Assembly (NCBI RefSeq): GCF_012726195.1
Contig: NZ_JAASAF010000006.1
Location: 124,001 to 188,000, forward strand
Length of the DNA: 64,000 bases
Direction: 5' to 3'
DNA from: Rhodococcus sp. HNM0563
Lineage (GTDB): Bacteria > Actinomycetota > Actinomycetes > Mycobacteriales > Mycobacteriaceae
The translations under genes and the position numbers were made by a program. Below the pieces are notes generated by a model. The model did not search any database and was not told the DNA's origin. It saw only the letters and a list, made by a program, of their open reading frames with translations. Position 1 is the stretch's first letter; each line of letters begins with the position of its first letter. Below, in pieces: positions 54,902 through 63,735 of the stretch.

Positions 54902-55872
54902 CGGTTCCCCTGGTTGTCCTGAATCCCACGTGCCGCCAGTTCGCGCCCTGCGTCGAGGTAACTCATTGCACCGCGCGAACCTGGATCGTAGTCGAGAACC
55001 GTCGTCCCGTATCCGGGAGCTTCGGAGACTTTCACACTGCGCGGGATCACCGATCGGAGCACTGCGCCGCCGAAGTGCTGACGGACCTCCGCTGCGACCT
55101 GATCCGCGAGCTTGGTCCGACCGTCGTACATGGTCAGGAGAACGGTCGACACGTGCAGCGCAGGATTGAGATGTGACTGTACGAGTTCGATGTTGCGGAG
55201 CAACTGGCCGACACCTTCGAGTGCGTAGTACTCGCACTGAATGGGAATCAAGACTTCCTTCGCAGCGACCAATGCGTTCACTGTGAGCAGTCCGAGCGAC
55301 GGCGGACAATCGATGATGACGTAGTCGTATTCGCGGTCGCCGAGGGCTTCCTTCGTGATCGCGTTGCGGAGTCTGTTCTCGCGCGCGACCATCGAGACGA
55401 GTTCGATCTCGGCGCCCGCCAGATCGATCGTCGCCGGAATGCAGAAAAGTCGTTCACTGTGAGGACTCTGTTGCACGGCCTCCGCGGCGGTCACCTCACC
55501 GAGCAGAATCTCGTAACTCGACGGAATGCCGGAGTGATGGGGCACTCCCAATGCTGTGCTCGCGTTGCCTTGAGGGTCGAGGTCGATGACGAGGACGGTG
55601 AGCCCTTGGACCGCGAGGGCGGCGGCAAGGTTGACGGCCGTTGTCGTCTTACCGACGCCACCCTTCTGATTTGCGATGGTGAGGACGCGACGTTCGGGTG
55701 GTCTGGGGAGTGCGCTCGCTTCACTCGGGTGCAGAACCTGACTCGCGCGATGCGCAGCCGCGCCGATCGGGGTGTCCATCGACGAGAATGTGTCGACGGG
55801 GACCGGAAAGAAGTCGTCGTCGTTTGCGACCTCGGTTTCACGTGAAACAGCGGATTCAGATCCACCCGACAT
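54898..55872 (-). CDS. parA: Chromosome partitioning ATPase ParA
   Basis: 324 residues. Deviant Walker A KGGVGKT (70-76), [10 protein letters not shown] and [15 protein letters not shown] ~60-residue N-terminal extension precedes the ATPase. It segregates ParB-parS complexes. The ATG at 55872 has AAGGAG seven bases upstream; a start at 56001 is unlikely. A parS copy is embedded in codons 9-13 (VSRET). Confidence 0.96.
55835..55848. promoter_or_regulatory. parS site inside the 5' end of parA
   Basis: GTTTCACGTGAAAC, the complete 14-bp core of the parS consensus TGTTTCACGTGAAACA; right flank A matches, left flank is G. It is translated as VSRET in ParA. Confidence 0.9.
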
Positions 55873-60356: not shown

Positions 60357-62006
60357 GTGAACGACGAGCCTAACGCGCTTGCCGATGTGTGGGCGGACGT
60401 CGTTTCCGAGCTCACCGTGGACAACGGTGGATTGTCGAAGAGCCAGAAGGCATGGCTCAACCTCGTCAAACCCATCACCCTGGCCCAGGGTTTCGCGCTG
60501 CTGTCGGTACCGTCCACGCTGGCGCAGCAATCGATCGAGCGTGATCTGCGCGAGCCCATCCTGCGGGTACTCAACCGCAATCTCGGACAGGGAGTAGAAG
60601 GACTCGGCGTCCGAGTCGAACCTCGCGAACGGGTCGACGACCCCGCAGAGGATCCCTACGCCGAACCTCGCGACACATTGCCTCTCGAGGGACTTCCGAC
60701 CGAACCCACTTCGCGTGAGGTCAGATCCCGCGAAACGGCACGTCGCGACACCGAAACCCGCGAACGGCGCACTCCCCGCGACGCAATGCCTGCGGTCGAC
60801 GGCAGGAGCCTCCACCCTCGCCGTTTCGGACCCGGCTACGACCACGAGCCCTTCGAACCCGATCACGGAGACGTCGACGAGGTCGACGACGATCACGAAG
60901 CGCTCACCGCGGTACGTGAGTCCTGGCCGTCCTACTTCACTCAGCCGCCGCCTCCGGAAACGCCGGCGATCGGGAGCAGCAGTCTCAACGCGAAATACAC
61001 CTTCGACACTTTCGTCATCGGTGCGTCGAACCGATTTGCGCACGCCGCAGCCGTGGCGATCGCCGAAGCTCCCGCCCGCGCGTACAACCCGCTGTTCATC
61101 TGGGGTGCGTCCGGCCTGGGCAAGACGCATCTCCTGCACGCCGCGGGGCATTATGCACAGCGACTCTTTCCCGGAATGCGGGTGAAGTACGTCTCCACGG
61201 AAGAGTTCACGAACGACTTCATCAACAGCCTGCGCGACGACCGGAAGGTCGCGTTCAAACGCCGCTACCGCGAGACAGACATCCTCCTCGTCGACGACAT
61301 CCAGTTCATCGAAGGCAAGGAAGGAATCCAGGAGGAGTTCTTCCACACGTTCAACACCCTCCACAATGCGAACAAGCAGATCGTGGTCTCCTCGGACCGA
61401 CCGCCCAAGCAGTTGGCCACGCTCGAGGAGCGGCTGCGCACCCGGTTCGAGTGGGGTCTGATCACCGATGTTCAGCCACCCGAACTCGAGACGCGCATCG
61501 CCATCCTCAGCAAGAAGGCGCGGATGGACGGGCTCGATGTGCCGCACGATGTGCTCGAGCTCATCGCGAGCCGGATCGAACGCAACATCCGTGAACTCGA
61601 GGGGGCACTCATCCGGGTCACGGCGTTCGCGTCCCTCAACAGGCAGCCGCTGGACCTGACCCTCGCCGAAGTGGTGCTTCGCGATCTGATGCCCGATTCG
61701 ACGGCACTCGAGATCAACGCCTCGACGATCATGGCGGTCTGCGCCGAGTACTTCGGCATCTCGATCGACGATCTGTGCGGGCCGGGTAAAGCACGTCCGT
61801 TGGCCCAGGCCAGGCAGATCGCGATGTACCTGTGCCGTGAACTCACCGATCTGTCGCTGCCGAAGATCGGCCAGACCTTCGGGCGCGACCACACCACAGT
61901 GATGTACGCGGACAAGAAGATTCGCAAGGAGATGGCCGAGCGACGCAAGATCTACGACCAGGTCCAGGAGCTCACAGCCCGCATCAAGCAGCGCTCGAAG
62001 CGGTAG
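60357..62006 (+). CDS. dnaA: Chromosomal replication initiator protein DnaA
   Basis: 549 residues. Domain I (1-~90), a long charged linker domain II (~90-205), AAA+ domain III with Walker [10 protein letters not shown] (~250-258), Walker B LLVDDIQF and sensor motifs, and domain IV with the DNA-binding signature [10 protein letters not shown] (~515). The GTG at 60357 has GGGAGG seven bases upstream and starts [12 protein letters not shown]; an ATG five codons earlier (60342) has no better support. Confidence 0.98.
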
Positions 62007-62035
62007 CCGAGACCCACTGCAGGACCATCCGAGAA

Positions 62036-62070
62036 TCGGAAGCGCCACACCGGGCGCTTCCGATTTTTTC
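62036..62070 (+). terminator. dnaA terminator
   Basis: ATCGGAAGCGCC (62036-62047) pairs with GGCGCTTCCGAT (62054-62065), 12 bp, loop ACACCG, followed by TTTTTT (62065-62070). A strong Rho-independent terminator 30 bp past the dnaA stop, so dnaN needs its own promoter. Confidence 0.93.
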
Positions 62071-62293
62071 TGTCCACAGCCTGTGGGCAACCCTCGATTC
62101 CATCCCGGATCTCGAGAAAACAGACCCACTCACACTTGTGGACAAGGGTGTGCAGAACGTGGGATCTTTGTGGACGAACGGTGGACAGAAGTAGAACAGT
62201 CTCGAGGTGTCCACATTCATCCTCGAGAATTCCTCGAGTTCATCCTCGAGTCGAGCGCCTCGAGAAGGCCTCGCCACCAGCGTAGACGGTGGT

Positions 62294-62330
62294 TCGTCCA
62301 CAGATTCCACAGGACCTATTACTACTTCTG
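62294..62330 (+). promoter_or_regulatory. Candidate origin unwinding element: DnaA boxes plus DnaA-trios
   Basis: Two tandem DnaA-box-like sites (62294-62302, 62303-62311) lead into GGACC and then CTA-TTA-CTA-CTT-CTG (62316-62330). The complement of the trios reads 3'-GAT-AAT-GAT-GAA-GAC-5', the repeating DnaA-trio pattern defined in Bacillus subtilis, in the same order: box, short GC-rich spacer, trios, AT-rich DNA. Confidence 0.65.
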
Positions 62331-62550
62331 TGAGTTCTTCTCAGAAATACTCTTTCAAAACAGGTGTGTGGATCCCTCGAGTCCACAGGCCCTCGAGAGT
62401 CGTGTCCTCGCAACGAGGTCCGGCTTTCCAAGCAGCGCTCGAGGGCCTACCGTGGAGCCGCATCCCCGACGCCGAGCGAAGGAGTCGGGGCCGTGTGTCA
62501 GACTCGTAAGACTTGTCGATGACCACGATCGAGAGAGGATCCCCCGGGCG

Positions 62551-63735
62551 ATGGAGCTTGGAAGCATGAAGTTTCGTGTTGCTCGCGAGGACTTCGCCGA
62601 CTCTGTCGCATGGGTGGCACGAAGCCTCCCGTCGCGCCCACCGGTTCCGGTGCTCGGTGGAGTACTTCTCGGAGCCGAAGAGCAGGGCCTGACCGTCTCG
62701 GGCTTCGACTACGAGGTCTCCGCGCAGGTTCACGTCCCGGCCGAGGTCATCACACCGGGCCAGGTGCTCGTCTCAGGCAAGTTGCTCGCCGACATCACCC
62801 GTGCGCTCCCCAACAAGCCTGTGGATGTCGTCCTCGACGGCACCCGCGTGCTCATCACCTGCGGTAGCGCCAAGTTCTCCCTGCCGACGATGCCCGTCGA
62901 GGACTACCCGCAGCTTCCCGAGCTCCCCCAGCAGACGGGTGCCCTGTCCGGAGATCTGTTCGCCGAGGCCATCGGCCAGGTCGCGGTTGCGGCCGGCAAG
63001 GACGACACCCTTCCGATGCTCACCGGCATCCGAGTCGAGATCGAGGGCACCGACATGGTGCTCGCGGCCACCGACCGTTTCCGGCTCGCGGTGCGCAAGC
63101 TCGAGTGGATGCCCACCGGCGAAAGCACCAGCTCGGCAGTGCTGGTGCCCGCGAAGACTCTGTCCGAAGCCGCGAAAACAGTTGGTGGAGCATCGAGTCC
63201 GGTGGTCCAGCTGGCACTGGGCAGTGGCTCCTCGGTTGGGGCTGACGGTCTGCTCGGCATCGTCGCCGACGGCCGCCGCACCACAACGCGGCTTCTCGAC
63301 GCCGAGTTCCCCAAGTTCCGTCAGCTGCTCCCGAGCGAACACACCGCGATGGCCACGGTCGAGATCGCACCGCTGGTCGAGGCGATCAAGCGTGTTGCGC
63401 TCGTCGCCGAACGCGGAGCGCAGGTCCGCCTCGAGTTCAGCGAGGGCAGCGTGTTGCTCTCGGCCGGTGGCGACGATGCAGGGCGCGCCGAGGAATCGCA
63501 CCCGGCCGAGTTCCACGGCGAGCCGATGGTCATCGCATTCAACCCGGGATATCTGCTCGACGGTCTGACGTCGTTGCACACCGACAAGGTGTCCTTCGGC
63601 TTCACCACGTCGAGCCGTCCGGCCGTGCTGCGCCCCGCTACCGATGAGGAGCCGGTGCCCGACGAGTCGGGCACGTTCGCTGCCCCCGACAGCGCCTACA
63701 CCTACCTCCTGATGCCGGTGCGCCTGCCGGGCTGA
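62551..63735 (+). CDS. dnaN: DNA polymerase III sliding clamp (beta subunit)
   Basis: 394 residues, three clamp domains; [21 protein letters not shown] at the start, then [51 protein letters not shown] and the conserved C-terminus [10 protein letters not shown]. It tethers DNA polymerase III to DNA. The ATG at 62551 ([10 protein letters not shown]) resembles other rhodococcal starts; ATG 62566 is an alternative with GGAAGC upstream. Confidence 0.97.

Follow-up and report, generated by a model that had tools for sequence, protein, structure and literature searches.

Organization of the dnaA-dnaN region

The window analyzed here is a 64-kb stretch (64,000 nucleotides) of the genome of Rhodococcus sp. 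HNM0563 (RefSeq assembly GCF_012726195.1, contig NZ_JAASAF010000006.1, positions 124,001 to 188,000 of the forward strand). It contains dnaA and dnaN separated by an intergenic gap, presumed to be oriC from its flanking genes and DnaA boxes (Table 1). The gap contains nine CTCGAG hexamers, DnaA boxes called against the general consensus, and the sequence TATTACTAC, which resembles DnaA-trio repeats and presumably marks the start of the unwinding region.

Table 1. Features of the dnaA-dnaN region and of related CTCGAG clusters (fractions are same-genus genomes retaining the site)
Feature	Position	Strand	Remarks
dnaA	60342-62006		Pfam Bac_DnaA; stop at 62006
dnaA-dnaN intergenic region (presumed oriC)	62007..62568	.	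562 bp
CTCGAG	62111..62116	.	17/18
DnaA box TTGTCCACA	62137..62145	-	perfect
DnaA box	62169..62177	-	1 mismatch
Core phased CTCGAG quartet	62201..62250	.	sites at 62201, 62222, 62233, and 62245; steps of 21, 11, and 12 bp
DnaA box	62207..62215	+	1 mismatch; abuts first core CTCGAG, second core CTCGAG six bases on
12-bp pair CTCGAG-N6-CTCGAG	62233..62250	.	most widely conserved element
CTCGAG, out of phase with core	62259..62264	.	15/18
DnaA box	62294..62302	+	1 mismatch
Putative unwinding-region start, TATTACTAC	62303..62330	+	
CTCGAG overlapping degenerate DnaA box	62376..62381	.	box at 62379-62387, 2 mismatches; 8/18 at aligned columns
CTCGAG	62392..62397	.	11/18 at aligned columns; nearby sites shift between species
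CTCGAG	62438..62443	.	2/18 at aligned columns
dnaN	62569-63735		start at 62569
Second CTCGAG cluster in relatives: L122 (G001), L121 (G004), L120, L123, L124			near rsmG, by parS-like sites

Abundance and conservation of CTCGAG

A sequence-only reading of the window had reported nine CTCGAG hexamers in 333 bp, above chance. All nine positions were confirmed, as was the TCCTCGAG form that it had given for three of the sites, and 62111..62443 is the densest 333-bp stretch for the hexamer within the window. Dinucleotide shuffles of the gap (n = 5000) gave a mean of 0.53 copies and a maximum of 5. An origin in chance or in the composition of a GC-rich genome could draw on the commonness of the hexamer in the window, with 68 copies versus 38.4 ± 5.9 in 100 dinucleotide shuffles, 55 of them in coding DNA by rough ORF calls, possibly as a Leu-Glu codon pair. 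It is refuted, however, by the counts: the gap exceeds every one of its shuffles, the remaining noncoding window DNA has 0.62 copies/kb (4 sites in about 6.5 kb, the coding/noncoding split coming from rough ORF calls) versus 16.0/kb in the gap, and each of 46 origins from family genomes that were scored negative for the methyltransferase described below has 0 or 1 copy. The array is real and under strong selection, and it very probably has a function.

On the genome scale, CTCGAG was followed as pairs, triples, and 20-kb samples. The 5.5-Mb genome contains 21 pairs of the form CTCGAG-N5-9-CTCGAG, 3 of which lie in oriC with steps of 11, 12, and 14 bp; each of the 18 others has a step of 12 or 15 bp, the pattern that would be expected of in-frame Leu-Glu codon pairs. 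A search of 397 genomes of the order, a draw that includes only part of the cluster-bearing genomes, for a CTCGAG triple whose 11-bp step is followed by one of 11 or 12 bp matched once each in three genomes (the present genome [G000], G004, and G065); reversed-pattern controls gave 0 in these three. The matches in G000 and G004, which belong to the same genus, are the core array, and that in G065 lies inside its dnaA-dnaN gap.

Conservation was examined in an alignment of 18 genomes of the genus, the present one included. Each gap carries 6 to 10 CTCGAG, and the core quartet is intact in all 18, one of them with a 22-bp first step. All 24 columns of the quartet are invariant, versus 133 of the 292 other columns of 62120-62459. 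Two DnaA boxes have 7 of 9 and 8 of 9 invariant columns, and the core spacers have 17 of 26, a degree of conservation not seen across genera. Unlike the core, the outer sites turn over between species of the genus. The two comparisons that the sequence-only reading had proposed both came out in its favor, other intergenic window DNA being far sparser in the hexamer and related origins retaining the sites. The 12-bp pair is present in the gap of 18/18 genomes of this genus, 14/14 of genus g10, 14/14 of genus g24, and G095 of genus g22, at the aligned position in the representatives compared.

By arithmetic, the offsets of the core quartet (0, 21, 32, and 44) are in phase at 10.5 bp per turn. 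The hexamers at 62222, 62233, 62245, and 62259 had been placed near one face of the helix; this is true of the first three but not of 62259, which at offset 58 from 62201 lies on the opposite face, varies in its step from 14 to 15 bp, and is missing in 3 of the 18 relatives. The placement of the array between groups of DnaA boxes likewise stands in outline, except that the box at 62207-62215 sits within the array.

Spacing across genera

Adjacent CTCGAG spacings of up to 60 bp, taken from one genome per genus, favor 11-bp periodicity (mean cosine, 0.60), and the best cosine over periods is 0.62 versus a maximum of 0.53 in 3000 uniform-spacing sets. Pairwise spacings across genera peak at 11-12, 22-23, 33-34, 44-45, and 56 bp. 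Several genomes carry extra arrays on the dnaA side of the gap. That of G199 has nine sites with 12-bp steps and a 24-bp repeat, that of G095 has 11-bp runs with the repeated spacers GAGTA/GATGA, and those of genus g23 have 11/22-bp steps. In G181, the steps are mostly 11 bp, every spacer is different, and the hexamers are perfect. Two genomes of genus g10, G089 (L132) and G170 (L130), have six and nine extra CTCGAG, respectively, at 13- to 15-bp steps at the start of the gap, and the spacer CTGGAGC occurs twice in G170.

The repeated spacers of some arrays show that these grew by tandem duplication. That the arrays as a whole are neutral duplications, with the spacing being the duplication length, is nevertheless very improbable: the repeated spacers of G199, G095, and G170 suit such an origin, but the unlike spacers around perfect hexamers in G181 do not, nor does a core that is invariant in 18/18 genomes while over half of the other columns vary. 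The perfect hexamers and unlike spacers of G181 suggest that hexamer and step are both selected, and the spacing pattern suggests a protein that contacts adjacent sites, beyond an effect of methylation density alone.

Iterons of plasmids and other replicons are short origin repeats with a near-helical step, and the sequence-only reading had proposed that the hexamers could be iterons. The near-helical step is shared: the sites are origin-specific direct repeats with regular steps of about 11 to 12 bp across genera, occur at multiples of about 11 bp in several of them, and keep their steps with unlike spacers. The likeness does not extend to a long conserved unit beyond the hexamer, as spacers differ within arrays and the hexamer alone is conserved across genera. 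We know of no cognate Rep protein for the array.

A candidate methyltransferase and its distribution

A DNA methyltransferase encoded on the chromosome probably acts on CTCGAG. The methyltransferase search covered four Pfam families (PF07669, PF00145, PF01555, and PF02384), with others, such as PF02086, outside it, and the only enzyme found in all same-genus genomes tested is P0001, a C5 methyltransferase (PF00145) of 395 residues encoded at G000:C50:490154-491338, outside the window but on the contig that carries oriC, at a distance of about 300 kb. In the family draw it is present in 15/15 genomes of the genus, and 85 of all 201 genomes have a match (E value, 1e-20), mostly at 74 to 94% identity. 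A Vsr gene lies directly behind it, and a Vsr match was found in 77 of 80 related loci. By eye, its neighbors in several genera look like housekeeping genes; in 26 representative loci examined out of 80 fetched, no further gene family that might supply a reader of the mark was common to all neighborhoods.

Candidates from the other families were rejected. The PF07669 matches in this genome are a type I HsdM, with HsdS adjacent by eye, and a large ORF beside a helicase-like ORF. PF01555 has none in this genome and is found in 5/18 genomes of the genus, and PF02384 is found in 15/18, with no one enzyme common to all. A second PF00145 match (C1:769672) was left out of the distribution comparison.

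Further methyltransferase loci of this genome are a type I HsdM with a neighboring HsdS-like ORF, assigned by eye (L049/L045, G000:C50:306-308 kb), the second C5 methyltransferase, among ORFs without an identified product (L050, G000:C1:769-771 kb), and a 1563-amino-acid methyltransferase-like protein adjoining what by eye is a helicase-like ORF (L051, G000:C52:57-65 kb). Many P0001 copies in the genus (e.g., L091-L098) have one TGA within the aligned stretch and an open frame of 392 amino acids; the TGA therefore probably falls in the first residues, with the true start a few codons downstream of the TTG. In Prescottella defluvii (L300, 6001-7171; G197:C1:326844-328014), whose origin has 9 sites, the match to the methyltransferase is broken into three pieces that overlap and represents a pseudogene or an assembly error.

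Co-occurrence was assessed with 120 origin regions fetched among the DnaN matches listed for the 201-genome draw, distant genera (e.g., g3, g4, g5, and g8) being outside the counts. One of the 120 loci (G109), with no dnaA end, was dropped; G005, G010, and G017, outside the methyltransferase draw, and G069, with a weak P0001 match, were left out; and divergent homologues in G130 (63%) and G027 (48%), with 1 and 0 sites, were scored negative. Clusters of at least four CTCGAG occur in 60 of the 127 family genomes having both origin and P0001 data, namely, in 60/81 P0001-positive versus 0/46 P0001-negative genomes. In genus g22, P0001 is found in one of six genomes (G095), which alone has a cluster (10 sites; the other five have 0 or 1). 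Genus means of CTCGAG density at the origin are 6.65/kb for P0001-positive versus 0.21/kb for negative genomes, the largest difference among palindromic hexamers; the runner-up, CGATCG, has 1.47 versus 0.78/kb. The dnaA tree shows only about 5 changes for each of three traits (the cluster, P0001, and the orphan state), and the 2 to 3 well-supported independent pairs agree or tie, with a mean of 0.0 against, which is not significant. Because tree changes are few and these pairs are not significant, that P0001 methylates CTCGAG is something we infer.

CTCGAG itself might instead be bound by a conserved protein of the origin, whether an initiator helper or an architectural or transcription factor, with methylation incidental or merely protective. 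The fixed position of the core pair beside DnaA boxes accords with this, as do the 11- to 12-bp steps retained with unlike spacers, which point to protein-protein contacts between neighbors. A factor blind to methylation would, however, have to be co-inherited with P0001 to fit the 46 cluster-free genomes, and the methylome study of Blow et al. 2016 (PMC4752239) links CTCGAG to an enzyme of the orphan methyltransferase class. We consider this explanation unlikely, although it is the strongest of the rivals.

Probable loss of a partner nuclease

The 21 of 81 P0001-positive genomes with fewer than four sites are 13 of 14 in genus g6, all of those in g16, g27, g28, and g31, and G183. The target-recognition stretch appears to be about as conserved in named g6-type loci. 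In relatives, a family without a Pfam or NCBIfam name lies between the methyltransferase and Vsr genes (L260:7188-8048 and its relatives) and is probably a PD-(D/E)XK restriction nuclease. Cluster-bearing origins make up 51/54 of the P0001-positive genomes without this nuclease-like gene versus 9/27 of those with it, and three orphan-bearing g6 genomes have zero CTCGAG at the origin. A search of the present genome for that family alone gave no match; no such gene stands beside the methyltransferase, and with respect to the relatives' partner nuclease P0001 is an orphan enzyme.

In 20-kb samples and the window, the genome-wide signature of Vsr-type repair (CTCGAG surplus and CTTGAG deficit) was not seen, and CTCGAG observed/expected ratios were 0.75 to 1.02 in cluster-positive groups and 0.65 to 1.04 in P0001-negative ones. 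Among nuclease-bearing genomes, avoidance of CTCGAG is strong only in g31 (18 observed versus 44.9 expected, the lowest of 40 palindromes). G183 is also low (7 versus 12.2 expected), as are its P0001-negative g30 relatives. Elsewhere avoidance is weak or absent, with group mean ratios of 0.77 for nuclease-bearing, 0.89 for orphan, and 0.87 for negative genomes.

The sites could also be a by-product that serves only to retain the methyltransferase/Vsr pair, unmethylated sites or Vsr nicks being harmful, with no control of replication. The near-constant company of a Vsr match is in keeping with this, and in Caulobacter, losing a solitary C5 methyltransferase carries a cost that is due to a Vsr-like protein (PMC12907096). 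Such retention would need neither helical spacing nor conservation above that of DnaA boxes, however, and the nuclease-like gene was not found in this genome; we regard it as improbable.

Comparison with known systems

The sequence-only reading knew of no described role for the hexamers, which was incomplete. The text of Blow et al. 2016 (PMC4752239) reports CTCGAG clusters between dnaA and dnaN in Nocardiaceae that correlate with an orphan methyltransferase, for which a putative part in replication is given, so clustering of CTCGAG at the origin is not new. The array described here agrees with those clusters in motif, place, genus or neighboring genus, and correlation with an orphan methyltransferase, and P0001 may be the enzyme of that paper. 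It shows noncoding enrichment at the origin, orthologous clusters in relatives, and co-occurrence with a methyltransferase that is not significant after phylogeny is considered. The C5 enzyme with Vsr, the nuclease that is probably its partner in related genomes, and the spacing of about 11 bp go beyond that text (PMC4752239), whose main part contains no word starting "spacing," "periodic," or "helical" and which gives no modified base for CTCGAG, the candidate here being a C5 enzyme. Methylation of CTCGAG to m5C has been described in Halorubrum. The same text also lists origin clusters of orphan-methyltransferase motifs for TTAA in Arthrobacter and CTAG in Haloarchaea (PMC4752239), which resemble CTCGAG in origin clustering but differ in motif, enzyme, and lineage. 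The Caulobacter pair ScmA/VsrA (PMC12907096) is similar in that a solitary C5 methyltransferase is functionally linked to a Vsr-like protein; it differs in its motif (YGCCGGCR) and its unlinked genes, and "oriC" is absent from the main text.

In the literature covered, which leaves most subscription papers outside its scope, neither the spacing nor a P0001-type enzyme accompanied by Vsr was found described, and no test of a role was found. Relative to the accounts found in print, the helical phasing of the array, the C5/Vsr pair as its candidate writer locus, and the proposed descent from a restriction system appear to be new.

In Escherichia coli, the Dam target GATC is clustered at oriC and read by SeqA. 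The CTCGAG array is similar in presenting the short palindromic, probable target of an orphan methyltransferase at the origin with a spacing fit for a cooperative reader. It differs in its six-base word and in the candidate enzyme, which is a C5 rather than an N6-adenine methyltransferase. We know of no SeqA counterpart for the CTCGAG system, and a search for a reader with an SRA domain (PF02182) gave 0 matches in 201 genomes, with the controls silent as well.

Proposed role at the origin

We propose, with a probability of roughly 0.62, that the CTCGAG array provides the cis element of a Dam/SeqA-like origin mark that derives from a restriction-modification system minus its nuclease and is recognized by a putative reader. 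The array may tell the cell whether its origin is freshly copied. P0001 would methylate CTCGAG, and the array would be hemimethylated straight after initiation. The putative reader, which could be the origin-binding protein envisaged by the sequence-only reading, would bind neighboring hexamers about one helical turn apart, sense hemimethylation, and act in the immediate surroundings of the DnaA boxes, one of which (62207-62215) is inside the array with others flanking it; the presumed unwinding region would extend downstream from about 62303. Through this reading of the methylation state, the system would govern re-initiation, the loading of DnaA, or segregation, much as SeqA acts through GATC in E. 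coli.

P0001 itself would descend from an operon of methyltransferase, restriction nuclease, and Vsr, with the nuclease lost in this lineage. More speculative, and in our judgment somewhat more doubtful than not, is the full history in which Rhodococcus, Prescottella, and probably Nocardia domesticated a restriction-modification system made up of a C5 methyltransferase, a PD-(D/E)XK-like nuclease, and Vsr: its nuclease would have been lost, the word multiplied into helical oriC arrays, and an actinobacterial SeqA analogue would read hemimethylated m5C and time replication. To our knowledge, actinobacteria have no SeqA or Hda, and their control of re-initiation is poorly understood; with an array at the origin and a candidate for its writer, this question becomes directly testable. 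If the proposal is true, it would describe an origin mark built of 5-methylcytosine and a visible instance of a restriction system become a cell-cycle device.

A second cluster near parS-like sites

Five parS-like sites (TTCACGTGAA) start at window positions 55837, 56101, 56127, 56161, and 56484, upstream of dnaA in what we take, by eye and general knowledge, to be the parA/rsmG region. At this place the window has only three CTCGAG (56562, 56583, and 56592), within rsmG, and the noncoding cluster is absent. In five of the seven same-genus relatives compared, a second CTCGAG cluster lies about 6 to 6.5 kb upstream of dnaN, at a density of 5 to 9 CTCGAG per 500 bp, coding part included. In L122 and L121, the sites are by eye mostly outside the rsmG frame, close to a parS-like site, and irregular in their steps, and regular spacing therefore appears to be dispensable in some places.
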